Origin: Clitopilus passeckerianus | Lineage: Eukaryota > Basidiomycota > Agaricomycetes > Agaricales > Entolomataceae | NCBI GenBank assembly: GCA_944990035.1 | Contig: CALYLX010000124.1 | Coordinates: 248,001 to 312,000, forward strand | Direction: 5' to 3' | DNA length: 64,000 nucleotides | Shown: positions 18,872 through 64,000 of the stretch, piece after piece | How positions within the stretch are numbered: the first letter of the stretch is position 1 | Layout: each line of letters begins with the position of its first letter | Translations under genes and position numbers: made by a program | The notes under the pieces: model-generated | Told to the model about the DNA's origin: nothing | Databases searched by the model: none | Seen by the model: the letters and a program-made list of their open reading frames with translations, nothing else

Positions 18872-20386
18872 ATTGACGATCTAGGGAGAGCATGAATTAG
18901 CGAGGAGACCGCAAGAGGCGAGCAGATTGCGTACAATGCTAAGCTTGTGCAAGCTCGAGATGAGTGTGAGGTTGTTGGGAGTGTTCTGTCGAGTAGCCTT
19001 GGAAGTTGGAACATGGTGGCTCTTATAGCTTTTCTGTAATTAGGCCTTCTCATTTTCGTAACATTACCCAGGCCTTTTGCCAATTCGGGCTCCAGTGCAG
19101 TCTACGAGCACCTGACAAAAAGCTGTACCCCATTTCGACATTGGGGTAACCGAGATGAACCTCATGTTCTGTGACACGAACTCAATCGGAGTCGATTCTT
19201 TAGTGTGTTTAGAAGCATGTGTGCAATGGACCGCACTGGCAACATAGCCTTTCGTCGAAATGCACATATTTCCAGCTATCTTCGTATATCCAGACCTATC
19301 TTGGAGGTGAGAGGTAATCAATTCGCCATTACAACAGGCAATCTCGCTCCTCCTTATCTTGACCCTTATGGACGAACCCTAACCTGATCGGTAGCAGCAT
19401 TGACAATAATTCAATCTACCTAAGCAGCAGAAATTGCTCCTGGATATGCTAAACTCGATGCGAACCCGCGAGTCATGTCGAGCGCAAGAGTTCTACCACC
19501 TGACCGTGATTTGGAACATTTAAGGAGTAAGTTTAGAAGAAGCCACCGGCCCACCGAATCCGCTGAAATTTCGAAGACTTCTAGAGACATGAGATAGCCG
19601 TCAATCGGACAGCTCGAATGGGGTCCATATTGGATCCCCATCTTGGCCTCCATTGATCCAGCTTGGATCAAAGATGTTTTCGCTGGAAAATCACCCGGTT
19701 GGAGCAAGGCGTTGGGGATGGCACTAAGTCAGGAAATGACTCGGTAAACTCGTAGAATGGATTTCTGTGGTACGCCAACCGTACAGAGGTCTGAAAACCC
19801 TCCGGGGCATGCGTAGCTGCTGCGAGAGAGCTCACTGTGACTCCGAAGCCGGAATAAGGCATGTTCTTGTTGTTTTACTCCGAGATTATGAGCATTGATT
19901 ACCTTTAATGGAAGGTGTTGCGGCTGAAATCAGAATGACACTGGCAGGCTGAATCTCGTCTTAAGATGGGGTGCTGACCCTCTCTATCGTCCCCTGAACC
20001 TCATAAGGAGTGGGACCCGGGGATCTAAAGGAGCGGTAAGGGTGCCTTAATTAAATGATGCCACAAACGTTTTTGAGAACCCTTTACAGATGGAAGCAAG
20101 GATGATCGATGAATCGATGAATTGATGACACCTTAAGTTGAAGTCGAGTCCCCAAGATCCAAGTTGCCGGATACCCAAAGCAGATTTTACTAGCCATCTG
20201 TGGGCTAACGAAAGGAACCGGGGGTTAGCCAACATGTGCCAGCCATTGCGAGCATGGAGGTGGATAACATGGCCGTCTGAGGAGGTCACGGTTCAGCGCT
20301 CAGCATCAAGATATATTCAACATGTGGTAGAAGGAAATCTCGTCCGATAGCATAGACCACGTTTGCGATCGCAAGAACGGGAGGAA
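18872..20386. other. No confident gene
   Basis: Short overlapping open frames on both strands (for example 19420-19707 and 20047-20289, minus) have no recognisable content. Contains the promoter of member A: minus-strand TATAAG-like box at 19023-19028. Confidence 0.4.
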
Positions 20387-21075
20387 TCACCCAGCGGGTG
20401 TAAGGGCCCACTTTCCATCCTCGTACGTGAGTATGACCTCCACCGAGCCTGGCATGAGCGCAAACGCAAAGCGATTGACGGAAGCCGGATTGAACATGGT
20501 GTCGGTCGTCAGCTTCATGTCCCAGAACACCGCATATAGGTGCATCGGAAGGATGCTGGTTATGGAAGGTTTCTTCACCTCGGGTGAGACAAAGAAAGAA
20601 GAATAATTGTCGCTACCGACGTTGTGGTTGCTGACCCCGATGTAGACTCCATCCTTCCATTCGTTGTCGAAAGGCGGCTCCAGGCTGATATCCGCCGGAA
20701 ATTTTGACCGCACCATTTTCGTCGAAAGTAGCTTCCTGGTCTCCAATGATGTCTCGCACCTCAGTGGCAATAGTGACAGCTTGGCCAGCCTATACGGTGT
20801 CTCTCTAGGTAACATGGAGACAGTAAGAGAACAACGGCGTGCCGCGTGCTTACAATAAAATGTTGCGTTTCGTAGACCTGGTATTCATCCTTCCACTGGA
20901 CCGACACGTGTGGGGCGAGGCGCTTAGAGGGGACAGAAGCGAAGACAACGTTGCCTGGTACAAGCATTCCTTCGAACTGAGCATTCCTACTGAGGCAGAG
21001 ATTGAAGCCGCCCTCTCGGAGAATCACCAAGTCATCGTCAACGATATTGACTTTGACGCGAAGAGGGTTGGACAT
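20387..21075 (-). pseudogene. Two-exon family, member B (frameshift in exon 2)
   Basis: Exon 1 is intact (21075-20854, 222 nt; NLCLSRNAQFEG, GNVVFASVPSKRLAPH, WKDEYQVYETQHF). Exon 2 starts correctly (AGQAVTIATEVRDIIGDQEA, then ISGGYQPGAAF) but near 20675 five bases are missing relative to member F. The rest (FDNEWKDGVYIGVSNHN ... ILPMHLYAVFWDMKL ... WALTPAG) is therefore in another frame. Read straight through, the first frame hits a stop within about 15 codons. This is most simply a recent pseudogene, since the two halves are otherwise well preserved. A TATA box lies at 21221-21226, about 150 bp upstream of the start. Confidence 0.7.
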
Positions 21076-22324
21076 GTTGACGATCTGTGAAGCGTGAAAA
21101 GGGTCAGAGCAAAATGTCAATTGGATATGAGATAGTATCACCATACCGTATTCGCGGATGAGTGTTATATAGACTAGACAAATTGAGAAAGGTTAAGCTT
21201 TGAATTTTCAAATGGTCGATTTTATAGCGTAGGTACCTGCGATCGAATTTATCTATTCCATTGCTCGTACAATTACCCCTATAAATGAACTCGCCAGTGT
21301 GCTTCCTATGAATGGTTGTCATTTGTTAGGCCCCGTTTGGGTTGGTCGAGGTGCGTTCCCTTCTATTAACGTGCGGAGCTTATGACATGTGCCCCTGTTT
21401 CTTGAATGGTGCCATACCTGGAAGCAGCCGAGATGGACGTTGCTCTGTTAACTGAAATTGCCTAGATTGCGATTAACTAGGGGCCACCTACTGCGCACAA
21501 ATACAGGCTCAAAAGCATCGAATATGGAGCTTGAAGGGGCGTACAACAGCGTTCAAAGGAGTTAGCCCCACCTCAATGCGCATCCTCGTTGTCCTCGCGT
21601 ATGATTTGAAAAGCTAAGAAGTACAACGTGAGGTCGTGATCTGTTCGGACAAGCAAGTATGGTACGCATCTTCATCTCAGCTCAGGTGGGGAAGCTTAGC
21701 TTCTAGAAAGCCGAGGAATAGGTCAAGATCGAACGCGGGGACCAAGAACGGATCGCATTGTTGGCCACAGCCTCCGCAAGCTGACCAAATTCGTCAGTCA
21801 GGTAATATACTGTGTTTACAGGTTGATAGAGCTCATGAGCAGTACTTCAAGGGATTATTTAGGCCGTACACAAGTGTACTGCAGTGTGTGTGTCCTGGAC
21901 GAGGAACGAGGCGGGAATGAACTTGAACTCGAAGGTGAGTGGAAGGGATGACAGATCGAGCTTTAGAAATAAGATGAAATCATGGTCCCTCGATATACTC
22001 ATGAGCTCTTAAACCAGGAATTGCAGATAACGTCCATTATAGAATTCCAGAGCAAGCAGGCAGTGGCGGTCGAAACCGAGGCCGTAAGGTTACACAATCA
22101 GAACGAAATCCGTTATCGGCCGGAGTCTCCCGTCCAACAAATGATTGACATCAATCCGGCCGAATTCGAGCTACTTGCAGTATTTTCCGGAACGGCGGCC
22201 GAAACCTGACCATTGAGCCTAAGCTCAAGCTCCGGAACGACCGATGTGACAGAATTTCGATTTCCCTCGCTGAGTCTACGTATAATGGCTACCGTGACGA
22301 ACGCTTTAATCTAGAGAATCGGAT
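21076..22324. other. No confident gene
   Basis: Upstream region of member B (TATA-like CGCTATAAAA on the minus strand, 21221-21226) and 3' flank of member C. The open frames here, such as 21636-21920, look random. Confidence 0.4.
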
Positions 22325-23101
22325 CTATACTGCTGCCTCCTGTTTCCAAACCCCATCAGTGTACGAGAGTGTGATCTCCCCCAGGCTCGCAACTGTAAAC
22401 GAAAAAGGATCGCCAACCGTACTTTCAAACATGGTACCAGCAACCAAGTTCGGGTCGAAGAAGATCGAATATTTCGTGCTTGGGAGCAGGAGTACCTTCG
22501 TGTGCAACGGAAACTCAACAGAGATAAATGTAGGAGATTGAACTTCGTCGATAGCATCAAAGAATCTGACCGCAACGCGGGCTGGATTCTTCCATTCGTT
22601 GTCGACTTGGAATGCCGTGCCAGGGGACATAGAACCGCTGATAGTGATATCGCCCTTCGCGTTCATCGTGGCTTCCTGACCTGTTTCGATGTTGGCAACG
22701 TCCGTCTCAACGATCGCGCCATCCTTTTGAGGCCAATCAGTTGGAGACGAAAGTGAATGGGTTGTGGCCTTACTTCATTTCCACCTGTACTAGTGCCTGG
22801 TAATGAATTCGTCTTAGCGGCTTTGCCATGCTATACGGTCTTCAATCTCATGGTGGCGAGTGAAAAAGTGTTGCATGCTTACCTTGAACCCTATCGTTCC
22901 GTACACTTGGTAGATGTCCTTCCACCGGAACGTAATATGGGGCCCAAGGTCCTTAGAAAGAACAGCAGAGAAGACGACATTCCCCGCATTTGGCTCTCCC
23001 TCAAGTAACATATCCCTTGTGAGGCAGAGATTGAGTTTTCCTTCCATGAGAGACTCCACATCGTTTGTGTTGACATTAACCTTGAGGGTAGTGCTATCCA
23101 T
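22325..23101 (-). CDS. Two-exon family, member C
   Basis: Exon 1 23101-22883 (219 nt), exon 2 22723-22325 (399 nt); 205 residues, both frames clean. Exon 1: KLNLCLTRDMLLEG, GNVVFSAVLSKDLGPHI, RWKDIYQVYG. Exon 2: DGAIVETDVANIETGQEATM, FQVDNEWKNPARVAV, LPSTKYSIFFDPNLVAGTMF, LSYTDGVWKQEAAV. It is the most diverged intact copy: the NNYDAS motif is replaced and one codon is missing in exon 1. The central intron is about 160 nt, longer than the 55-60 nt in the other copies, so a small extra exon or insertion there cannot be excluded. Function unknown. Confidence 0.75.
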
Positions 23102-23675
23102 ATTGTCCCTTTACAATCAGATACAAGGCAGATTGGAGTTGATAGTGGGGATGAAAGTGAATCCGTTAAATTAACTAGCCTTCTTTTACATCCTTTATTA
23201 TTTACACGAGTCGCTTACCTTCTTAAAACAGAAGGATCGTTCGCAGACTCATAAAAGGGGACTTCTTTGAGTATCCACGCGCTCACAGACCATCCATCGC
23301 GTTAGAGCAGCGGTTAAATCCAGGTTCGTGCAGCTGACGTAGACTAGATCACATAGGAATATAATTTGTTCATGATATGCAATTGCATTTTGCGGAATCG
23401 CTGAGCTCAAAGTTACCCTGCCTGGCAGAAGAAGTAAGGTCATGATCATTGTCTTCGTTATCCATAACACAAGAGATGACGATTGCCCTCAAATACGGCA
23501 GGCATCCCAACTCAATATCAAATGTCAAAGGCGAAGACTCATAAAATCAAGACTACATAGTAATGACACTGGTCTAAGAAGCACAAAAGTCAAAGTACAA
23601 CGTTCAAAGCTAATCTGTCCGAAACTACTATCCGCTCGTCCATGATGATTTGGTCAGACTCCCTGACACAGTCCT

Positions 23676-24355
23676 CTACTTCGGAATGCTCCAGGCAGCG
23701 TCCTTATACTCGAGGACAATCTCACTCGTGCTCGTGAGGTCGAACTGGAACGGGTCGGTGGTAGTATGATCAATCATCGTGTCAGTTTCCAACCTCAGGT
23801 CCCAGAAGACAGAGAACTTCTTGATAGGGAGGAGATCGCTGGTCGAGTTCTTGGGGAGCTTGGGAGAGATAAAGATGGAGGCGTAGGAGCCGGTCGTGGC
23901 GTCGTAGTTGTTGACGCCGATGCGGGCGGGATTCTGCCATCCATTTCTAACGCTGAATGGAGTGCCGGGTTTACCAGTACCAGAAATGTAGTAATCGCCG
24001 TTCTCGTCGAAGTCTGCAGATTGGCCACCTTCAATGTCGCTGATTTTGGTGCCGACGTCGACCTTTGCACCACCCTACATGTAGCACTCATTGTGAGGTG
24101 GTGTCAACGCGGAGGGCATAGGTTTTTAGTTACCTCGAAACTGATCGTTTCGTAGACTTGGTATTTCTCCTGCCATTTGAGCGTCATGTTGGGGCCAAGT
24201 TTCTCGTTCGGGACCATAGAGAAGACGACGTTTCCTTTCTCCTCCGATCCGCCGTACTTGACGTCCCTAGTGAGGCAAAGGTTGAAGCCGCTCTCTCGAA
24301 CAACCTTTAGGTCTTCACCACTAACGATGATTTTGACAGTAAGGTTGTCGGGCAT
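23676..24355 (-). CDS. Two-exon family, member D
   Basis: Exon 1 24355-24134 (222 nt), exon 2 24074-23676 (399 nt); 206 residues. Nearly the same protein as member G at 52.5 kb (both begin MPDNLTVKIIV and end WSIPK). Motifs: FNLCLTRDVKYGG, GNVVFSMVPNEKLGPNMTL, KWQEKYQVYETISFE; exon 2 DIEGGQSADFDENGDYYIS, IGVNNYDATTGSYASIFISP, LPIKKFSVFWDLRLETDTM. The start is preceded by an intron acceptor and ATCGACAATATG. A TATA box lies at 24502-24507. The close match to a copy about 28 kb away implies recent duplication or gene conversion. Function unknown. Confidence 0.8.
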
Positions 24356-32626: not shown

Positions 32627-35600
32627 ATGTCGCAGGTCAAGCTGTAAGCAGATCATGCCGGTAAACGGCGCTTGTTGCTAGGAATCGACACTGAACTTTT
32701 TTTTGCCTGGATCTTTTCAGAACTTTGAGGCCACCACCGAATGTTGACTTTGTGCATGGTCTGTGACTTTGACGAACTCGAGAGTTGAACATCTGAGCTG
32801 AATATCTTGCAGGATATCCCGGCATTCCACCCGGTGGACCAGAACGGCCTCAAGCGGCTGTGAAAGGTGTACGTTGACTCAACCAACTATCGGGCGCAAT
32901 CCTCAATATTACTTTTAATAGGCTATCGAAGTCAGAGTTGGACCTCAGGGAGTCAAGGCGAAGTGGCTGAGGATCGAGCTGCGGAAGGTGGAGACACTGC
33001 CCAGTGAGGCTGGTCCATTGAGCACGTTCTACGACTATGTCGGACCTAGTCCGGTCAACCTCTGGACGTCCCCAGATGAATACGGGGTCTTGAGGACTGT
33101 AAGTCTGCCATTTCATTCTTGAACCGATCAACATGCCAACTGTCATTGCCTCGATAACAGCAAGATTTCCCATTCTCTATCCGGATTCCCGAGTCAATCC
33201 CCCCAAGCATCGCATTGGAGAATCGAGGTACGTCTCATTTTTAAATTCAACATTCTCATGCTAAAAATATCTCTCCAGCGGGCATCCAATACGAACTCGT
33301 CGCAAGTTTATGCACTAAAGGCAAAAGGTACGCCAAACCTCCATCCTCGCCACCCGCAGGCTTCCTAATTCTCCAACTCAAGAAACTTCCTCCGCAAACG
33401 CAAATCCAACGTCGTCTCCACCCAAGCAGCCATCATCATCGACAAACACGACCTCCATTCCACCTGGCCCGTCTACGCCCAACCCGAAACACGCCAAATC
33501 TCATCAGAGGGCGGCACCCTCACCGTTGACCGCTCCCAGACCTGCTTTGGGCCCTCAGACAGAATCAACGTCGTCGCCAACTTCCGTTCGGATACCATCA
33601 CTGGGCCCGTTCTGCGAGGTTTTGAACTCACGTTGAGGGAAACGACTATATTCACCACTGGACAGCAGGGGAAGAAGAGTGCGCCCCAGGTCCGGGTTGT
33701 CCAGATTGCGGATAACAAGTTGGCGATTAATGGCCCGCTGTACCCTGGTGCCCAACATCGGGCGGAACTGGCGGTCAGTTTGAGCGCGAACCATACCACT
33801 GCGACTCTGAACACCGCGAGGCATATTGATGTCACCTATGCCTTGAGTGTGAGGGCGATTGTGGATGGCGTCCCTCCTATTGCGATGGATCTCCCTGTCA
33901 TCATTTCGAACTGGCAGAGGAGCGTTTCGCAGATTGCTGTGAAGTGGGTTTTGCTCTCCATTTCACATGTCATTGTGGTTTCTGACGGAAGTATCTTGTT
34001 AGGAGGATCGGACCTACACCAGGACTTTCGTTGACACCTGTTAACGTCGTCCCACAAACCGTCATCCGAAGCGAATCGGCTGCACCACCTCCCTTAGCCA
34101 TAGCATCTACCGTTGGCTACGGTGGTTCACAAGCTGGTGGTTCCGGAGCCAACTCTCAATTCAACACTGCACCTGCCCTTGGTGGAGCAGGCTACAGCGA
34201 CATCAAAGCCGATGAATTCGGGGGATACGGCGGTGGTTTCACGAAACCCAAACATAGTCACAACCCCTCCACTGGAAGTTACGGCAACAACGACGACTTT
34301 GGTCCACGTCCCGGAACTGGACAGGGAGCTGGCACCGGCGTTGGAACGGGTGCCAGACGACCCGGATCTTCAGCTGGCGGAACGAACAGATTCACGATTA
34401 CGAATGCTCAGCCTAATGAGCTTCCTTCTCCTGATCCTCCCCGCCAGCCATATGGCAGCCTCAATAATACGAACAACAACCCTGGTCCACCGGCTGGGGC
34501 AGCTGCAGCTACGGCACCCGGCCAGCATTCACAGGCGTACATGACTGCTGAACAGGAGAAGAAGTTGTATGAACTTGCAAGGTCGAGGGTGGAGAGGACT
34601 CAAGGAATCGGCAAGGTAATCACACCGGTACGCGCCATTCTAACGCTATAGACCGTGTTGTACTAACGTTATTCTTCCTTCTAGCCTCCTACACCTCCTC
34701 CTGCACAAACTACTACGCCTCCACCTCAAGCTCAAAGAAATCCGCAATGGACCAGTGCTGAGGTGGAGAAACAGCAGCTCAAGAGGTTCCACGAAGCGCA
34801 GGCAGCAGTCCAGAGGACTCAACAAGGACTCAATCCCAATTCTCCCGATTCTGACGGGGATGCTGAAGGAGGTGAACTCTCGCGCGTCTCGTCCACCAAT
34901 AAAGGTCCTACCGCTGAAGGCAGCTCAGCGGCAGGCGGAAGCAGTGCGGCTCCAGTGTCCGGACAGGCATTGTACCACCAAGCTATCGCCCAACGCGACC
35001 AAGCTCTCTCACGTCAACGATCCATCGGAACTTTGCCCCAGGGTATACCCAACGTCCCACACTACCTCACCGCCGAACAAGAGAAGGCTGCTTTGCAGAG
35101 ATACGAGCAGGCTAAACAGGCGGTGGACCGTGTGCAAGGGAACGAGGGTTCGGAATCGGATGCCGGAGCTTTCCAGAGCTCGGGTAGTGCACCCATCGCA
35201 TACGAACATCTCTACCCAAGCAATGCTCAGCCTGCCCCTGCTGCTCCTGCCCCCGCCGCTGCTGCGGCACCTCCTGCAGCTGAAAGCGATCTCCCACCTT
35301 CGTTTGAGTCCTCCACGAGCCAACAACCGGCCAACAGTGCCCTTTCCGAGAAAGAGCGCCTGAGAAGGGCATACGAGGCACAAGATGCTGCAGCTGCAGC
35401 TGCCGCTCGTCAAGGTACCATGCAAACGAGAGAACCTTCTCCTCCACCAATTGCACCCATCGGAGCTGCTCAGATCAAACAGGCGCTCTCTGAAAAGGAG
35501 ATCCTCCGCCGCAAATATGAAGCTGAAGACGCAGCTCGGAAGGCTGCCGCTCAAGCTACCCAAAGCCCAACTCCTGCACCCACACCTCAAGCTTCAACTC

Positions 35601-36151
35601 ACCAACCCCGTAGCTTGCCTACAGCTGGTGGCAGCCGTTCACCACGACCTACACCCGCCCCGCCTACATCACCTGGCAAGATCCTCACAGCTGCAGAGGA
35701 GAAAGCTTTGTTGAAGGCTCAGTATGCTGCGCAGGACAGGGCAGCAGAGAATAGGGCACCAGAGCAACTTTGGAAGCCCCAGCCTCCGTCGCCTTCCTAC
35801 GTGAACGGTGGTGGAAGCGGAGGAGACCCATCATCTCCCCGCCCAGGATCCAGCATGCAGGTGCATATAACCACCTCTCCTACTCAAATCACTCCGCCTG
35901 CGCCTCCACCACTGGCCCCTCGTCCTCCTGCAGATTACCTTCGCGAGACTCTGGAGGAAGATGCCCGTGTTTCTCGTGCGATGGCGACGGGCTCGTACAG
36001 CGACGACCTGGAGTATGCACCTAGCCTCTCCAGGAAGGGCACTGCTGCTAGCGGTAACTCACTATCGCCCCAGCCGCTGGATGTACGACCTTTCTCGCCG
36101 TTTTCGGCTACCCTTGGGTTCGACGGCACGCCTCGCCAAAATGGCCAGTAA
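32627..36151 (+). CDS. Arrestin-domain protein with long low-complexity tail
   Basis: Fungal alpha-arrestin-type adaptor, a family that usually recruits ubiquitin ligase to membrane transporters. Exons: 32627-32643, 32721-32758, 32813-32868, 32922-33098, 33161-33227, 33279-33327, 33383-33943, 34003-34615, 34685-36151; 2757 nt, 918 residues. The N-terminal arrestin fold covers roughly residues 1-400 (RPPPNVDFVHGYPGIPPGGP; LWTSPDEYGVLRTQDFPFSI; FGPSDRINVVANFRSD; PLYPGAQHRAELAV), ending SNWQR...RIGPTPGLS. The rest is Pro/Ala/Gln/Ser-rich with repeated helical words (LTAEQEKAALQRYEQA, LSEKERLRRAYEAQDA, LSEKEILRRKYEAEDA, LTAAEEKALLKAQYAAQD). These look like a diverged internal repeat of about 25-30 residues. 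No PPxY was checked systematically. Confidence 0.88.
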
Positions 36152-36808: not shown

Positions 36809-39214
36809 TCAGTTCGCCTTCCTCCTCCTCTTGGTGCCCTTAGTCGTCGGCGAGTCTTGCACGTTCAACGTCGACATCCCCGAAACCGACTCCCTATCGC
36901 TCAAATCAAGCGACTTCCTCTTATTCCCTTCGTACCCCGCAACAGGTGGGTGCAACCCTCCAGAGGCATTCAAACTATTCCGCGAATGAGCCCCAGCGGC
37001 TGCCGTTGGAGCCTGACGTTGGACTGGATCCAAACCGGAATTCGCAAACGCCTCAGCGTTGGCAGCTGTAGGAGCGTAGCCAGCCAGGCCACCCGAGGCA
37101 GGGTTCGACGGATCCAGCTGGTCCCAGAGCAACGACCCAATGTCGAAGATATTGTTTGGATCCTGGGCGGCACCGGTTGCAGAGGAAGTGGGTATATGCG
37201 CACCACTCCCAGTCGATGACCCAGACGCAGTGGATTTATGTTGTATCTGCGCCTGCTGCGAAGCAGAGGGGTGGGTGGTATCCATCATATTCCCATGCCC
37301 GTCATCGCTCATCCCATCCTCAGCCCCTATCTCCCCCAGTCCACTGTCAGGGTGCTCAATCGTGCTGGGATCCAACCCCAGATCACGAATGAAACTCTCG
37401 ATATCGGTGCTCATCGCGTTCACGTCCCTGTCAATATCCTCAGCAGCTTTCCAGTCTCGAGCAATATGCTGAGCTTGGGCGTCGTTGGTGTAATGCGACA
37501 GGCCTTCGCCAGTAGGGGGGTGATCGTCAAACGAGAGAAGAGAATCCACGCCTCCGGGGACGTTCTGAATGGAAGGTGTGTTGGATATGAATTGGCTCCA
37601 GTCCAAAGGCTGAGCGTAGGGCATAACCTGTTGTTGATTGGTTCCGGACCCAGAACCTGTCTGGGTATGATCGGCGGAGAGGGCGTCTGCGGCATTGAGG
37701 TTCGATAAGAGTTGTTGAATTTGGGAAGGGGTCAGTTGATTCAGGAAGGTTTGAACCCGAGGATCAAAGTCGAGGCTATTGGAAGGGGAACGGGTGGGGG
37801 TGATAGAGCGGTCGGTGACTTCTGATTGAGGTTGTTGCTGGGCAGTGGCAGGTTGTGGTTGAGAGGGTCTGGAAGCCGCCGTACTCATATCTTTGGGCGT
37901 GGGTGTGGTGTTGGATGAGGAAGAACCAGAAGATGGAGTGAAGGATTGCGCCGAGGGGGTTGGTAAGAAAGGGTTTCCAGGCGGGTTCAGAGGTAACGGT
38001 TCACGGTGAGAACCATTTTCCGCAGTGGGCGTCGGTTGAGCGATGGAAGATGGTACACTTGCATCAGAATGGGCGGGTGAGGGTACTGAGTATGGAGTTT
38101 CCACAATTGGGTATTCTGTGGGCACCAAGGTCAAAGACCGTATATATGCGCCAAAAACAGAAGTCTACGTACCAGGAATGCTGAAATGCATTTGGTCATC
38201 GTCCATATCCTCATCGTCGTCTTCAACTCTCACTTTCCCACTGTTTTGCCCACTTCGGCCATCCTCGATCAGAAACCTCGACACCCTTCTTGGCACCATT
38301 GCACCACTGTCGACATTCCCATCTACATCCTTATGATGCCCCATCCCATTGCCAGCCCTGCTGCCAAAGACACCTGCCAAGAACTTGAGGATCCGATTGA
38401 TGGTATCCTGCTGTTTCTGGTGCTTCTGCCTGGCATCCATAGCGTCCTGCCACAGAAGCTGATTCGACCGCTTGAGCTCATTCAACTCTTGTGAGATGGC
38501 AGCTTGGTGTCGTTTGATAGCTGTAATGCCATTGACTATCGTTGAGACGTCCATTACTTGGTTGTTGGCATTGGGCGAGCTGATGGTGCCATTAGCGCCA
38601 GATGTGGCGGCATTCGAAGTGCTTCCATTTGACGACGACTCGGTTCGCTGGAGGTCAAGAACGCCGTCCCCAAGACCGTCTGCACCTGCTGCGCCCTGTG
38701 CCACTTGTTTCTTGCGTTGGATTAGACAAAGTAGATCAGGTTGGCCGCGGACGAAGTTGGGGTGTGCAAAGTTCCAGAATTCTGTGTCTGTGTCGGATCT
38801 GAGAACACCTTGCTGTAGGTGGGGTATTTTGTGAAACCCGTACATGTTGAGTTGGCGAACGAAGGAGGCAAAGTTTTGATGCTTGAACCACCTCCCAAGC
38901 ACTTCCCTTGCAAATCGTTCATGGTCAAGGACTTTGAACAGTATCAGCACCATTTTTATAGCTAAAACAGACATAACTCACCGAAAAACGAGTCTCCAGC
39001 GTCCGACCACCGTATAAGTTCATGATTATTGGGATCATTGACCATCCTGTAACATTAAACCCTGTCAGCTCATTTGCTCATACTGCTATCAGCACAGACG
39101 ACTCAACTCGTGAAGTTTCTGCAAGAAAGCTGGCACTTGAGATCTCGCCTTCTGCATCGTTATGGTGGGCGTTCTATGGCGTGCTAATGCTACTTGACCT
39201 GTGGCCATTGTCAT
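36809..39214 (-). CDS. Heat shock transcription factor (HSF family)
   Basis: Sequence-specific activator binding nGAAn repeats. Exons: 39214-39108, 39046-38982, 38931-38173, 38115-36809; 2238 nt, 745 residues. The DNA-binding domain runs from about residue 25 to 130: VPAFLQKLHEMVNDPNNHEL, IRWSDAGDSFFVLDHERFAR, WFKHQNFASFVRQLNMYGFH. A Gln/Leu coiled-coil trimerisation region follows (IVNGITAIKRHQAAISQELN). The long C-terminus is Ser/Pro/Gln-rich with acidic patches (EDDDEDMDDD; LSFDDHPPTGE), suited to activation, and ends in the basic KGTKRRRKAN, a probable nuclear localisation signal. The start is taken at MTMATGQVALARH, in frame with the domain. Confidence 0.93.
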
Positions 39215-57707: not shown

Positions 57708-60560
57708 ATGTCGTCTGACTCGCCTCTACAGTCTCCTCTGTCGCTGCCTGCAGATACTCTACAAATTAATTGTACGTTGTTAATCGATCCAATTACGCCT
57801 TAATTGACCACTACATTAGCGATCCGAATCGAGCTACCTTCCATCTCTAATAAAAGCATCAAGGCTGCGGAACTATTCGTCGATGGCCAGATTATTCCTG
57901 CAAAATGGGATAAGGAAGGAAGCGGGAATTTGTGCTTCAATGCTCGCCTTAAGCTAGATCCTCCTCGGTAAGTTGAATGTAACCTCTGGCGGAGGTCGGT
58001 AAGCTAACCACATGGCTAGGCCCCTATCTCCTGAATCCCATATTGCACTCGATGTCCACCTGACCCATTCCAAGTTTATGGGGACCAAACGAATAACAGA
58101 ACCGATAAAGGTATCCGTTGATGAACTAATGGCTGCCGTACGCAAACATGAATTAGGTGGGATTTACACTGGCGTGTCTTAAAAGTTCGTCGTTGACTCT
58201 GGCTTGTCAGCTTGGAAGAGGTCATGGAATGACCTCACCATTCATATTAAGGGTTCGCGACCAGCACTCATTGCGCCAGTGGGTATCTCTAGAGATTTTG
58301 CAACTGGGTATAACTCATGGGAAACAATAGCCCCTTGACTCCAGAGCAAGTGTTCGCTCTGTGCCTGACAGTCTGCACCGCCAGGATACATTGCAGGAGT
58401 CCCCACCGTCCATAATGAAACCCACGACGGAGGAAATTCTAGAGCATTGCCCACGGTGAGTTGGTTTGAGCAATAAGCTCTTTGTTCGTTATTCAAGGAT
58501 CTATGCCAGATTCCGGATTCTAGTTATGGGAAAGGTATGGATACTGAAAGTTTTCGACTGGAACCACTGTGTGAACTTAGGCAGACAGGAGCAGGGAAAT
58601 CCTTACTGATTAATAAGACGTTCGGGGTGGATGATGCCGTATGTCGTCAAAGGCGTTCTTGTTTTGCCTCTGCTGACAGGATTCTACAGATTGTCTCCGA
58701 AGATGAACCAGGCTATGCCGACATCGATCATGAGATTTTCTCTGAGGATAACCCTCATTTTGTCCTGCACGATAGCATGGGCTTCGAGCACGGCGACGTA
58801 GAGAATGTTAATACTGTGCGGGAATTTATCCTTGGCCGAAGTAATAAGGAGCATATAGGCGATAACCTTCACGCCATTTGGTAAGTCTGACGTCCATCCA
58901 TGACTCAACGCTTTCAGGGGCCTAAACATGGTTTCCCTCAGGCTTTGTATCGCTATACCTGTGAACGGTGGTCGCCTATTGGAGAAAGGAGTGGAGGATT
59001 TCCTTGACCGCAAGTTGAAAGGGGAGCTTGGAAAAGGTACCGTTCGTCCAAGAGCCCACTCATACGCGCCATTAACGCAGTTCTTAGTGCCCATCATCGT
59101 CGTGTTCACCAAATATGATCAGCTGCTCACTAATATACGACGAAACATGGGCCCAAATGTATTCGAAGGAATGGCCAAGCCAGACATCGACATTCTTGTG
59201 AATGAACATGCACAGGGGCAACTGCACATGCGATGGATCAAATCGTTCGAGGAAAGGACTCAGAACAAGATATCCCACATTTATGTTTCCTGTGAGCAGA
59301 TTTCTTGACTTCCTGAGGTCTTATTCTAATTTTTTTATCGCAGCGAAGGACAACCACGAGAGGAATCTGGCAGATCTTGTCCAAATGACTTACGATTGCG
59401 TTAATGATTATTTCGTTGATGCCTCAATCGTATCCGCCATGGCACAGCGCGTCAGTCCAGTACTGAATATCAAGGCATCGATTGCGTGAGCATTGCTCTC
59501 TTCACCTTTGTGACGGTCATCATTTGACTCCGAGAGCAGCGTTGGGAGACGAAGTAAGCTAACTCCGCTGGTCCTCGTCAGTTTATAATTAATCCTCTTG
59601 CTATTCTAGAATATTGGGCTCGTCTCGCGCGTAGCCTCGCTTTCCACGGAAGACCGCTTCTTCAATGCGTGGATGTGATTCATGCAGATATCATCGGTGT
59701 CTGGCGACTCAACGACCCAAATAACGTGTGTATGACGGCCTCGTTGAACATACATTACCATTGACCTTTCGAAGTTCCTGTCTAGCCATGAATTCAAGGC
59801 TTTGATTTCAAAACTGGTCGATAAGGAGGAAAACCACGTCATCGTCCGAACTGCCCACCGAGTCATGTAAGTTGCAATGTTTTGGCCGACGCAGTTTCTA
59901 CCATACTGATGGCATTACAGACCAGCAGGCGTGTCCATGGTCGCTGGACTAGCAGGCATTCTTTCGGGTATTGCAGCTGCCACCGTAGCGGCGCCGATTG
60001 TAGTACCAATCGCAGCCGCACTCGTATTTGCTAAGTGGGTGAATGACGTCTATCAGCATACGTAAGTTCCCGTTGCTATTTTGTACATTGAAGGCTAACT
60101 GGTAATCTTCAGGTCATTCGTGCTGGAACGTCTAATGACTTATATCATCGACCTCAGTCTCGTCTTGCAGAACCTCTTCTGGCTCCAAACTCTCCGTAGC
60201 CCCGGGAAGCCAGTCACCCGTCGGCTTATCAAGATAGCGGTGCAGGCGTATGCTGAATCAAACGCAAAGCAGGCTCTGCTCTTCAAGATCGAGCAGCACG
60301 TTCGGGATGGAATACGTCTGGATATGGGCCCAGACACAACACTAAACCGAATCGAGGAACTGCTTCACGCGCATATCATCGATTCCGCAGAGGTACTTTC
60401 GTACCGAAGTAGTCTCAATGGCTCAAGTGTCAACGAGTGGGACGCAGACGAAGATTGGGACTCGACTAATTCCACCAACGATTGGCAACGGCTCCGTCGA
60501 GGCGAAGAGTCTGGGGTCAATACACATGCCATATTTGAGGCAGCTTCTATGGCACGGTAG
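57708..60560 (+). CDS. G-domain (AIG1/TRAFAC-like) GTPase with C-terminal hydrophobic segment
   Basis: N-terminal beta-rich region (IRIELPSISNKSIKAAELFV; HIALDVHLTHSKFMG) resembling a C2-type domain, then a G domain. G1 is VMGKTGAGKS, formed by splicing at the GGCAG acceptor near 58583. G3 LHDSMGFEHGD; G4 VPIIVVFTKYDQL. Later exons: MTYDCVNDYFVDASIVSAMA, KYWARLARSLAFHGRPLLQC. A Gly/Ala/Val-rich hydrophobic run (GLAGILSGIAAATVAAPIVV) probably spans or associates with a membrane. A helical C-terminal region ends INTRON-free at GVNTHAIFEAASMAR. Exons between 58200 and 58490 are uncertain: a 106-nt gap, twice the normal intron size, may hide a microexon. Convergent with the similar gene to the right. 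Confidence 0.8.
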
Positions 60561-60733: not shown

Positions 60734-63700
60734 TCACGTTGGTAGCCATCTATGAGGTGGGATTGTAAGTCGTGATTTCGTCAAGGACCCTATGGCGTAC
60801 CCATCTGCCATGTCGATCCGATGGTCAAGAACAATCTGTCCCATTGCAAGTATGAGTCCTCTTGTCACCTTGGCAGCCTCATCCTTCGACTTTTGTCCTA
60901 TCTTGAATAGGCCAGACGAAGGCTGGCGTTGAGATTGAAGCTCGTCAAGAACGGCGTGTATTGCCCGGGAGGAGTCGCGGAATTGAGGTGAATCCAAGAA
61001 ATCTTGAATCGCAATCTCAATGGAGTCCTTGAAATCGAGCGATCGATCTCGTTGCTTGATGAAGAATGAATGGTCTGCGATAATTCCCAGAGCTAGAACA
61101 ATCAGATAGTTGGAGTGTTAAAGGACGATTGTAAAATTGCCCCACCTGTTGCAAATTCTGCGAGTTGGATTCCTGACAAGCGGAAAACACCATGCGCCTT
61201 AAGAAGTGAGTAAGCTTCACCAACATGCGACGTTTGACCGAAACTCACTAGTACAACGAGTCTGGCTTGGATGGATTCCGTTTCGTGTAGGCGCTTGATT
61301 CTTAGATCCTTCAAGTGAACTATCAAACGGTGTCCATTCGGTTCTCAGAGCAAATGACTTACTCGCTATAGGAAGAACTCAGTTGTGAGAAGGGAAGAGT
61401 ATAGCATTAATTACCCACTAGAAATAAGACGTAAGCAATAATAACCAAACATGTTCCAGCGACTTACAGGCTGTTCATATTAGGCTTGTTCACGGTATCG
61501 CAGGTACCTACTTACTTCCTGGATACGGATGTCAGCAAAAAGCGCTAGCGAGGTCAAAGGGGAAGGGGCTCACGAGCTTAATGATTTACGTGAGAGAGAC
61601 GGTCAAAGACAGATAAGGGAGCCGCTTACATCCTGGGTGGGTGAGTTATCAATGTGTTCGAGGGGCTATGTCGTTTTAACTCACCTTCTGTATATTTTAC
61701 TTGGGTGCTTGAGTCAGATCTGAATGGACAATAACCGTACCCACTAGCACGATAATTAAGTAATTAGTTTCGAACAAGGTATTCACTGGATAAAAGACTT
61801 ACTCCCTGAGCAGCTAGAAGTAACTCTCATGTTGTGCAGTTACATCACGCGTACCTCCTAAGAGGGCCGCTGGTCAATCTAGGAGCCAAAGCTTCAGAGC
61901 GTTCGGCTTACGCTCTACAAGCATGTGAGCCAACGCGTAGGTACGTAGTAGGCAGGGATACAACTTACCGTCTGGATACGAAGTCAAAGGTATACCACGG
62001 AGGACAAACTGGTGACGTACATGCTAAGCCACAGAGAGTCGTCAGTTCATCTGCTGCACTAGGCAATGTATGATGACCCTTACATCCTACGATAATAAGA
62101 ACAACGGTTGATCCACGAAGCAAGAAGAACCCGTACCATCTGTTACGCTAGGTGTTAAGCCAAGATAGACGGATAAGATAGAATTAGTCGTACAATCTAT
62201 GGCAATTATGAGTGACTTCGGACGCTCGCCTCGTCCAGTGAAATGGTGTCACGCACCAACTATGATAGATAAGTAAGCTGTATAAATGTGGCAGATAGCA
62301 GATTTACCCTCTAAGAATGTGGCTCAGCTAGTGCATTAACCAACCCAGAGATCACTTACACGCTAGAGATGGTTTAGTTCCGATTGACGTGTACTAGCTA
62401 CAAAAACACGTACCAGCTACAAAATGTTCTCTTCAGGCCATTGAGTGAGTTTCGCAATCTAGACTGACTCTCTTTAGAAACCACAGCTACTTAGTCCAAG
62501 TTCAATCAACTCCACGACACAAAATCTTACTTGCTGAAGCCGACGGATGAGAGGTGGTCACGATGCATGATCAAATGGGACTTACAAGCTACTAAATGTT
62601 AGACATTACTGCCTCCTTGTATTCGAAGTGTAGCTCACTTTCTAATATGTGTGTGCTCAGAGCACGACCGCTGGACAGAGAGGGGACAAGCAACCTACCC
62701 GTTCTTTTGCCTAGGCCTGGCGGTTAGCATGTCGATTAATAATAAAGACTATTAAGCAAACGCACCTCCTATGAGTTGTTGACCATTCAACAATCAGCAA
62801 TTGCGTCCGAACGTCATTATCAGATAATGCACCATCTGGCCAATTTTAGCCCGTGGTTACAAATAAGTAAACAATCTCACCTCGAGCCCTATACTTTCGT
62901 CCTGCCGCGAAGCAATGAGCCCATGTTGAAATAAGAAAGTCCCATTACTCTACCATCTAGAGGTCACATTTTAATAACCTTCTACAAGTTTCCCAAGGCC
63001 CAATGACCTACCTGTGTAACCTCCTAGAATACGCATTCAAACTTGAAGGCCGTCCCTTTGGAGAGGATAAAAGTGCTCACAATCTGATGTAGGTTAGCAT
63101 TTACACTGAGCTACCGAAAAGCATTCTCACCAGCTAGAAAACTCCGTGTCAGGCCGGCCCAACTCTGAGAGGCGAAACCTACTTACATCCTGTCAAGAAA
63201 ATTAAGGATAGTCACAGTCATAGCTCATTCGGCCAAGGAATTACCTCCTGTATGGACCCTCGTTGGTTGAAACGTTCTAAAAGAAGGGGAGAAGTACTCA
63301 CAATAAGCTGCGGGTAATACCAAAAAATCGTGGTCTGTGCCTCTTTCACTGTCAAATGTCTATTCTTGTCAAGGTTACGTGTTTGTGTCAGTAATCTCCT
63401 GCAGGGGGCCATTAGGTCGGGTCGTCATGTCTATAGTGCCCAACTTACTGGAACGCAAAACGGGTGCACTGGCTCAAGATAAATCTCTGCACAGAAACAA
63501 ACATCAGATGTAAGGTTTCGTCATCAAGAGCCATTCCCGTATGCTCCAAGAGAGCAAGGCAGTTCGACTCTGGCAAATGCATATCTCCATGAAAGCTCGG
63601 GTCAGGGAGCCTAAACGTATCCGAAAAATGAGTCCCTACCCCGAAGACCAATATAAGAACGTGGCGGATACGTAGCCTTGAAGATTCGGAGCTTCGGACG

Positions 63701-64000
63701 AAGTTCGTCGAAGAGACGCTGCGAGTATTCGGGTACCATCTCAAGTGCCGTATTCTGGTCAACGTCGCCATTATCATCTAGAATGCGACCAAAGGCCTTG
63801 TCGTCCAAGGAGTCAAGTTTGGTAAAAACAGCGATGACAGGAACTTTGGGGCTCTATGAGCAGATATAAAGTGGGCGCGGGGAATACCTACTATCGCCAG
63901 TTCCACATTTCTCAAAGAACTCGATTTCGGGCTTCTGGATGGGACGAGCGTCGTCGAGAGGGATACAATACCTACAAGCAGATAAATGAGGTCGACTGCA
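60734..64000 (-). CDS. G-domain GTPase carrying an array of single-codon microexons (5' end beyond window)
   Basis: Right edge cuts the N-terminus, so G1 is not visible. G-domain part: YCIPLDDARPIQKPEIEFFE, then VPVIAVFTKLDSLDDKAFGR (G4 TKLD), LEMVPEYSQRLFDELRPKLR, MHLPESNCLALLEHTGMALD, DETLHLMFVSVQRFILSQC. The exon 63398-63302 encodes RLLTQTRNLDKNRHLTVKEA and TTIFWYYPQLI. Then come about 34 tiny exons (63247 down to 61363). Ordinary exons resume at 61308-61249 (DLRIKRLHETESIQARLVVL), 61197-61146 and 61092-60734 (ALGIIADHSFFIKQRDRSLD to PPHRWLPT). All these exons agree in phase. Same family as the convergent GTPase on the left by the HAIW/CIP and IxVFTKxD patterns. Confidence 0.8.
61363..62467 (-). 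other. Microexon array, downstream half
   Basis: Minus-strand 3-nt exons, named by first base: 62465 TCA (weak; ATT at 62456 with a GC donor is the alternative), 62414 CTG, 62360 CGT, 62308 AGG, 62257 TTG, 62194 ATT, 62137 ATG, 62084 GAT, 62021 CAT, 61969 ACG, 61912 AGC, 61855 GAG, 61803 GGA, 61741 TGG, 61685 AAG, 61630 GAT, 61574 CTC, 61516 GAA, 61468 CCT, 61415 TGG, 61363 CGA. Introns are 45-63 nt. Donors are mostly GTAAGT, GTAAGC, GTACGT or GTGAGT. The last intron (61362-61309, 54 nt) must end at the AAG acceptor to keep phase 0; the nearer TAG acceptor at 61320 would give an immediate stop. The next exon continues in phase 0. Confidence 0.8.
62531..63247 (-). other. Microexon array, upstream half
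   Basis: Minus-strand exons, each preceded by AG and followed by GT: 63245-63247 GAG, 63187-63189 GAT, 63131-63133 CTG, 63081-63083 ATT, 63012-63023 (12 nt, codes EVTQ; a 3-nt GAG with a weaker GTTACA donor is the alternative), 62954-62956 ATG, 62881-62901 (21 nt, DESIGLE), 62833-62835 ATG, 62766-62768 GAG, 62699-62710 (12 nt, AKER), 62639-62641 AAA, 62586-62588 CTT, 62531-62533 CAA. Introns between them are 45-64 nt. Donors include GTAAGT, GTGAGT/C/A, GTAGGT and GTGCGT. All exons are multiples of three and read in phase 0 with no stop. Confidence 0.78.

Follow-up and report, generated by a model that had tools for sequence, protein, structure and literature searches.

Thirty-four tiny exons predicted to encode the linker of a GTPase in Clitopilus passeckerianus

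Results

Organization of the array and its gene

The window examined here is a 64-kb stretch of the Clitopilus passeckerianus genome (contig C123, positions 248001-312000, in an assembly of 64.8 Mb and 160 contigs). A gene on its minus strand is predicted to encode a GTPase, and very probably the linker that joins the G domain of this protein to its C-terminal domain is encoded by 34 in-frame tiny exons that are spliced into a fast-changing protein segment. The array occupies 61309-63301 (1993 nt) and is composed of 31 exons of 3 nt, two of 12 nt and one of 21 nt, amounting to 138 nt and 46 codons that correspond to residues 316-361 of the predicted GTPase and read E-D-L-I-EVTQ-M-DESIGLE-M-E-AKER-K-L-Q-R-L-R-R-L-I-M-D-H-T-S-E-G-W-K-D-L-E-P-W-R. 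The tiny exons are found between 63247 and 61363, and the 35 array introns measure 45-64 nt, with a median of 53 nt. All tiny exons are multiples of three in phase 0, and therefore skipping of any set of them would preserve the frame. The predicted gene has 44 exons (Table 1), including seven ordinary exons before the array, three of which lie outside the window, and three after it, and its remaining eight introns are 48-60 nt in length. Once joined, the frame is without a stop from the ATG to the stop codon and encodes 517 residues in each of two haplotypes, located on C123 and C26.

The initial annotation of the window had placed the array at the same coordinates, on the same strand and in the same phase, and direct reading of 63301-61309 agrees. 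It had counted 33 tiny exons and one weak candidate; the resolved total is 34, including an AGA exon (62471-62469) between CAA and CTG, which divides a gap of 114 nt such that the introns on either side measure 59 and 52 nt. The intron lengths and the divisibility of the tiny exons by three that it described are reproduced, and the joined frame is free of stops in both haplotypes. Micro-exon 5 is ambiguous in that GAGGTTACACAG may alternatively consist of GAG with a weak donor after it. A further candidate exon, ATT-gcgaaa, was dropped as its AG is missing from the other haplotype. Likewise, a reading of 61248-61198 as entirely coding was ruled out by an in-frame stop in the C26 haplotype; as a 51-nt intron with the acceptor AAG, the same interval keeps the frame in both haplotypes.

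The spacing of the splice sites is far from that anticipated by chance. There are 34 AG-NNN-GT[AG] sites in the array stretch, compared with a mean of 4.8 and a maximum of 12 in 1000 dinucleotide-preserving shuffles. Thirty of these sites are exons of the chain and four are not, and the AGA exon, the 31st of 3 nt, has a GTC donor and thus falls outside the count. No other AG-to-GT[AG] spacing from 0 to 30 nt is represented by more than 10 sites in 63420-61181. The longest strict chain, defined by 3-nt exons and 45-66-nt introns, is 20 exons long in the array and at most four in the shuffles, and it is limited to 20 by the 12-nt exons, the 21-nt exon and the GTC donor, which interrupt it. For exon sizes of 0-2 and 4-12 nt, chains in the array stretch do not exceed two. 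Elsewhere in the 64 kb, array-free 2-kb intervals contain at most 10 AG-NNN-GT[AG] sites on the minus strand and nine on the plus strand, and strict 3-nt chains are no longer than two. Fourteen further loci were scanned, and such chains are no longer than three in 10 of them; the other four contain the window array (L001, L020), its allele (L018) or the array of a paralog on contig C152 (L019), described below. Finally, a branch-site-like YTRAY is present in 21 of the 35 array introns (shuffles: mean 13.1, maximum 19, n = 100).

Comparison of the two haplotypes

Contig C26 is collinear with C123, with 22 kb aligning at 90% identity and other pieces at 72-95% (the longer ones at 84-95%), and is read as the other haplotype. 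All 34 tiny exons are retained in it. The array codons differ at eight of 138 bases (5.8%), affecting eight codons, six synonymously and two not, which is close to the 79 of 1416 bases (5.6%) that differ in the other exons of the gene (52/945 before the array and 27/471 after it). In contrast, 406 of 1841 aligned bases differ in the array introns (22.1%), more than in the eight other introns of the gene (56/426, 13.1%; Fisher p = 2.4e-5). Eighteen of the 35 array introns differ in length between haplotypes, 16 of them by a number that is not a multiple of three, and the frames are open regardless. Across the array, the first two donor bases change solely at micro-exon 23, where GT becomes GC alongside a synonymous codon change. 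Over the whole gene, 62 of 87 base changes are at third codon positions, with 55 synonymous and 26 non-synonymous codon changes. That codons are held while introns drift is poorly explained by a single 2-kb intron.

Table 1. Features of the GTPase gene, its array and the array of the C152 paralog
Feature	Position	Strand	Remarks
GTPase exons 1-3	beyond window end, C123 positions equivalent to 64031-64568	minus	
GTPase exon 4	63892..63971	minus	gene model
GTPase exon 5, TKxD motif region	63640..63843	minus	gene model
GTPase exon 6	63449..63584	minus	gene model
Final ordinary exon ahead of array	63302..63398	minus	...FWYYPQLI end, phase 0
Entire array	61309..63301	minus	35 introns and 34 tiny exons
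Micro-exon 1	63245..63247	minus	GAG (E)
Micro-exon 2	63187..63189	minus	GAT (D)
Micro-exon 3	63131..63133	minus	CTG (L)
Micro-exon 4	63081..63083	minus	ATT (I)
Micro-exon 5	63012..63023	minus	GAGGTTACACAG (EVTQ)
Micro-exon 6	62954..62956	minus	ATG (M)
Micro-exon 7	62881..62901	minus	21 nt (DESIGLE)
Micro-exon 8	62833..62835	minus	ATG (M)
Micro-exon 9	62766..62768	minus	GAG (E)
Micro-exon 10	62699..62710	minus	GCAAAAGAACGG (AKER)
Micro-exon 11	62639..62641	minus	AAA (K)
Micro-exon 12	62586..62588	minus	CTT (L); other haplotype CTG
Micro-exon 13	62531..62533	minus	CAA (Q)
Micro-exon 14	62469..62471	minus	AGA (R); other haplotype AGG, synonymous; donor GTCAGT/GTTAGT; weakest, detected via haplotype comparison
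Micro-exon 15	62414..62416	minus	CTG (L)
Micro-exon 16	62360..62362	minus	CGT (R)
Micro-exon 17	62308..62310	minus	AGG (R)
Micro-exon 18	62257..62259	minus	TTG (L)
Micro-exon 19	62194..62196	minus	ATT (I)
Micro-exon 20	62137..62139	minus	ATG (M)
Micro-exon 21	62084..62086	minus	GAT (D)
Micro-exon 22	62021..62023	minus	CAT (H)
Micro-exon 23	61969..61971 (L018 near 5860)	minus	ACG (T); other haplotype ACA and GC donor
Micro-exon 24	61912..61914	minus	AGC (S)
Micro-exon 25	61855..61857	minus	GAG (E)
Micro-exon 26	61803..61805	minus	GGA (G)
Micro-exon 27	61741..61743	minus	TGG (W)
Micro-exon 28	61685..61687	minus	AAG (K)
Micro-exon 29	61630..61632	minus	GAT (D)
Micro-exon 30	61574..61576	minus	CTC (L); other haplotype CTT
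Micro-exon 31	61516..61518	minus	GAA (E); other haplotype AAA
Micro-exon 32	61468..61470	minus	CCT (P)
Micro-exon 33	61415..61417	minus	TGG (W)
Micro-exon 34	61363..61365	minus	CGA (R); other haplotype CGG
Initial ordinary exon past array	61249..61308	minus	DLRIKRLHETESIQARLVVL, phase 0; family alignment from residue 2
Following exon	61146..61197	minus	AHGVFRLSGIQLAEFAT...; preceded by 51-nt intron, acceptor AAG
Terminal exon, C-terminal domain	60734..61092	minus	...LGIIADHSFF...IVLDHRI... to stop
C152 array, 39 tandem units	L019:5048-7670 = C152:459547-462169	minus	position as in window gene

The GTPase family

The N-terminal part of the protein has 1942 relatives at E <= 0.001, and the matches listed include named homologues from Tephrocybe, Arthromyces, Termitomyces, Tricholoma, Athelia, Laccaria, Suillus, Serendipita and other Agaricomycetes. 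The query for this search and for the paralog search carried 10 surplus residues from two wrong junctions. The G motifs GRANAGKT, HDSRGFE and FTKxD are present, and a Pfam scan of the joined protein at E <= 0.01 returned only MMR_HSR1 (22.6 bits against a cut-off of 21.9), Arf and Septin, with no NACHT, ankyrin or immunity-related GTPase (IRG) profile match. The part that follows the array scores 62.7 bits against a profile of 14 family C-termini, compared with at most 8.5 bits for 1000 shuffles, and by BLASTP is 35% identical to P0018 over 101 residues, beginning at residue 2 of the post-array exon, and 33% identical to P0001 over 82 residues. The sequence past the array is thus the C-terminal domain of the family, with its HSFF-type motif. 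Homologous protein at either flank fixes the reading frame on both sides of the array.

We examined 191 homologous proteins, made up of the best 120 of the 1942 matches and the best 120 of 1094 matches, that overlap. Among these, 63 carry W[FY]P[HQRY], the motif found at the end of the last exon ahead of the array, and the other 128 were left uncounted. In 33 of the 63, V-S or V-R, the translation of a GTRAGT-type donor, is found within six residues past the motif (random stretches: mean 2.0, maximum 7 in 2000 draws), and therefore an intron likely starts at the matching place in many of these family genes. As many as 48 of the 63 models terminate within 60 residues past the motif, whereas 11 reach the C-terminal domain as judged by motif pattern, as does P0018 by direct comparison. 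This suggests that gene finders often lose the genes of this family at the array position. The end of one model, P0111 (...DDVRYEVSFF), resembles a run of array codons that continues into a retained intron.

Five of these 11, all uninterrupted JGI frames (P0057, P0063, P0093, P0103 and P0179, on contigs of 1529-1848 bases), cross the array position into the C-terminal domain, and given that the window gene has six introns ahead of the array, these frames are probably derived from RNA. No relative of P0063 was found in viral_contigs. At the array position the frames contain a variable segment of few residue types, such as RYYYDDVRDLDVLDLLRDLDVLLLLKREK in P0063. With segment bounds set by eye, the segments of P0057, P0103, P0179 and the Laccaria protein P0178 are lower in complexity than at least 99.5% of windows from the same protein, and that of P0063 lower than 92%. 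In four pairs of homologues, 252/301, 237/294, 212/287 and 214/290 residues are identical as far as the motif, and beyond it both sequence and length diverge. An alignment of homologues had been proposed as a check on the array; the flanks are indeed homologous and residues are present at the array position in the JGI frames, but the segment is variable rather than conserved. Taken together, the second haplotype, the homologous protein on both sides and the family gene models uphold the claim of a codon-sized exon array in a GTPase gene.

The structural model of P0057 (mean pLDDT 76.7) consists of a G domain, a low-confidence array segment in which residues 306-327 and 329-334 have a pLDDT below 50, and a helical C-terminal part that is modelled with greater confidence. 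Thirteen PDB entries match its fold at E <= 0.001, of which 11 are immunity-related GTPases (IRGa6, GM4951; best 4.2e-5) and two are dynamin-like. Immunity-related GTPases resemble the model in having a G domain followed by helices; the similarity is nevertheless low, with TM of 0.31-0.37 by query and 0.35-0.41 by target, and 9-12% identity. The predicted structure is compatible with an immune-type GTPase without establishing one, and membership of the IRG family is not claimed.

Another member of the GTPase family, more distantly related, is located at 58690-58896 (C123:306690-306896) and at C26:145395-145631, about 1.8 kb past the 3' end of the array gene and on the opposite strand in both haplotypes. 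It has no codon-exon array, as the longest strict chain on the plus strand of L020 is two.

A tandem array in a paralogous gene

A paralogous GTPase gene on C152 has an intact G-domain frame that ends in the phase of the window gene. It is followed by an array for which Tandem Repeats Finder reports 38.8 copies of 69 nt with 95% matches and zero indels. Units were located by a pattern requiring GTGAGTGCTTCAA, and each is composed of a single codon and an intron. The first 38 introns are 66 nt long, end in CTGCAG and are nearly invariant, with 12 distinct introns among the 38, and the codons are TTG, GAA, TCG, TTC, TTT, GAC or GAT. Mean heterozygosity is 0.024 for intron columns, compared with 0.43, 0.58 and 0.61 for the three codon columns, which rank within the four most variable of the 69 (p = 7.6e-5, computed post hoc). 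In addition, 47 of 87 unit pairs that share identical introns have different codons. The units also show a higher-order periodicity of about 12, with intron and codon mismatch lowest at a lag of 12. The unit was found at one locus only, in searches that scored best candidates only. The simplest reading of this array is tandem amplification of codon plus intron units, and its codons may have been kept from older diversity, exchanged between units or selected to differ.

Other features of the window

A repeated or duplicated family is located at 20000-24000, with partial copies on C123, C26, C146 and C152 (67-85% identity). In 1-kb steps, G+C content is 0.56-0.59 at 34001-36000 and 37001-38000, compared with 0.44-0.52 elsewhere.

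Discussion

Comparison with known systems

Codon-exon arrays are already known in kind, and what differs here is their occurrence in a GTPase family and in the Basidiomycota. The initial annotation knew of no described locus of this sort. However, dozens of 3-bp mini-exons have been reported in the NACHT-ANK (nank) genes of the truffle Tuber melanosporum (Iotti et al. 2012, via PMC9815663, PMC4986451, PMC10197012), where they are said to be alternatively spliced and to diversify the C-terminal recognition region (PMC9815663, PMC4986451). As in those accounts, 3-bp exons follow one another by the dozen in genes of a fungal family, with 31 of the 34 exons here and 39 units in the C152 array. Unlike the truffle genes as described there, the window gene has an MMR_HSR1 GTPase match and neither a NACHT nor an ankyrin match, its homologues are in the Basidiomycota, its variable segment is a predicted linker ahead of another domain, and the C152 repeat hints at an origin.

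The micro-exon genes (MEGs) of Schistosoma and tapeworms are described as encoding secreted proteins, with introns of 0.1-5 kb and exons of 3-81 bp according to the abstract, or 6-81 bp and mostly 15 bp according to the text (PMC10526429, PMC7653826). They too contain series of very small exons, mostly symmetric, that are overlooked by gene finders and whose skipping can alter single residues. The criteria given for tapeworm MEGs are seven or more exons, with half or more of these under 70 nt and divisible by three, and a run of at least four (PMC7653826); here, 34 of 44 exons form one run, all multiples of three. In contrast to the schistosome genes, however, this is a G-domain GTPase with introns of 45-64 nt and mostly 3-nt exons. 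Cytochrome P450 genes of Phanerochaete chrysosporium, likewise an expanded basidiomycete family with tiny exons and short introns, for which alternative splicing has been suggested, have scattered microexons of 2-10 residues, the shortest of 6 bp, that form no single-codon array in what is described (PMC1184071). Plant microexons of 1-15 nt, mostly unannotated, can be codon-sized or smaller as here, but are described as one or two per gene at a fixed position, with no long arrays (PMC8831610), and the functional microexon of Trichoderma Xlr2, also a filamentous fungus, is a lone switch-like exon in a transcription factor rather than an array (PMC11121469). Microexons of 3, 18 and 22 bp are described for RPS24. 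Intron gain through tandem genomic duplication of an exonic AGGT segment has been reported (PMC3443670), and tandem duplication would yield introns in both cases, although the C152 array instead duplicates a complete intron plus one codon. Polyubiquitin UBC provides a tandem splice-site array in a repeat gene, with dual-specific AGGT sites and products of variable length (PMC10809524), but its units are whole ubiquitin monomers and its AG-GT sites have no intervening exon. A Cryptococcus paper was set aside as a microexon precedent, as the word there refers to an aligner setting only. Among the titles and abstracts listed by the literature searches, from which most subscription journals are absent, there was no codon-exon array in the Basidiomycota or in GTPases.

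How the array may be spliced and how it may change

Fungal introns of such size are thought to be excised by intron definition, and in this way the ordinary spliceosome would join the 34 tiny exons by removing 35 short introns one by one. Excision would have to proceed in turn because a 3-nt exon is smaller than the footprint of the splice-site factors and cannot be occupied at both ends simultaneously. Judging by the C152 paralog, arrays would probably lengthen when a codon plus intron unit is duplicated in tandem and shorten when one is lost, each event adding or removing residues without a frame shift. Turnover of units over generations, possibly together with exon skipping, would thereby vary the linker residue by residue, and such variation most likely would diversify a recognition or oligomerization surface, as has been proposed for the truffle NACHT-ANK receptors. 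More tentatively, such a generator of diversity may be carried by a large GTPase family throughout the Agaricomycetes and may have arisen independently of the truffle NLR mini-exons; tandem recombination of units would rewrite the linker codon by codon, skipping of codon exons would add in-frame isoforms per cell, and the proteins would have a role in immune-type or self/non-self recognition.

Alternative explanations

If 63301-61309 were a single long intron, with the tiny exons being decoy or relic sites, the ordinary exons would be joined directly. We consider this highly improbable. A length of 1993 nt far exceeds the 48-60 nt of the eight other introns of the gene, as the initial annotation had argued, and a single intron provides no reason for 34 AG-NNN-GTR sites with 30 in one exon chain, for codons that differ by 5.8%, mostly at third positions, while introns differ by 22%, or for the 30-46 residues that are present at the array position in four uninterrupted JGI frames. 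These outweigh the facts that both flanks are in phase 0, such that direct joining is also in frame, and that in some annotated Suillus models little sequence separates the motif from the next conserved block. A pseudogene, with array and frame decaying in both haplotypes, is scarcely credible: no feature of the gene sequence was seen to favor it, open frames of 517 residues are present twice, base changes are concentrated at third positions (62/87) and splice sites are kept.

The origin and role of the array invite two further alternatives. Introner-like elements, mobile introns known from fungi (PMC3443670), might have inserted once per codon into an older coding stretch with no tandem duplication of codon and intron, which would account for the C152 introns being near-identical (12 distinct of 38) while the intervening codons vary. 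We regard this as unlikely, given that introners spread across many genes whereas the C152 unit is at one locus among the best candidates scored, and that exact 69-nt spacing, the absence of indels and higher-order repetition at about 12 units resemble tandem duplication. Alternatively, the array may be spliced but be a neutral product of runaway unit duplication without a diversifying role, such that all transcripts contain the identical 46 codons. The 46 positions are indeed common to both haplotypes, which differ there at just two residues, and the faster divergence of array introns (22.1% compared with 13.1%) suggests that little beyond the splice sites is constrained. Still, relatives in the four pairs differ strongly in the linker while keeping the G domain, variability at C152 is concentrated in the codons, and the truffle counterpart is reported to be alternatively spliced (PMC9815663, PMC4986451); neutrality is therefore somewhat unlikely, although it deserves more weight than insertion of introners.

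Several results weigh against the proposal of a spliced linker that evolves by unit duplication. Searched on their own against the database, residues 275-517 of the joined protein gave no match at E <= 0.01 among 1171 candidates, although the C-terminal homology is evident by direct comparison. Enrichment of strict CTRAY branch sites does not reach significance (10 of 35 array introns; shuffles: mean 6.7, maximum 12). The introns of the window array are mutually dissimilar, with 13 pairs sharing an 8-mer (shuffles: mean 13.2, maximum 21), and for this reason a tandem-duplication origin of the window array itself is not demonstrated; such loss of similarity is expected if this array is older than that on C152. 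The massive local intron gain postulated by the initial annotation thus acquires a concrete route from codon plus intron amplification at C152, but is not shown for the window array. At C152, intron column 31 has a heterozygosity of 0.61 that rivals the codon columns, and column 23 one of 0.36. The repeat also yields a 39-exon chain of 7-nt exons because each repeat has a second GT. Neither a C-terminal domain downstream of the C152 array (tblastn, L019 and L031) nor a second haplotype of this gene was found, and consequently the C152 gene may be a broken copy.

Significance

The array extends codon-sized exon arrays from a truffle NLR family to an unrelated GTPase family in a different fungal phylum, and two unrelated families suggest convergent use of splicing for residue-by-residue variation of proteins. 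It also provides a natural test of the minimum exon size that the spliceosome can handle in series, and the C152 paralog captures an array at a clean tandem-unit stage, which makes the origin of extreme intron density directly testable. Finally, the array suggests why so many gene models of the family are broken and without their C-terminal part, and the 48 of 63 motif-bearing models that terminate near this position are a target for re-annotation.

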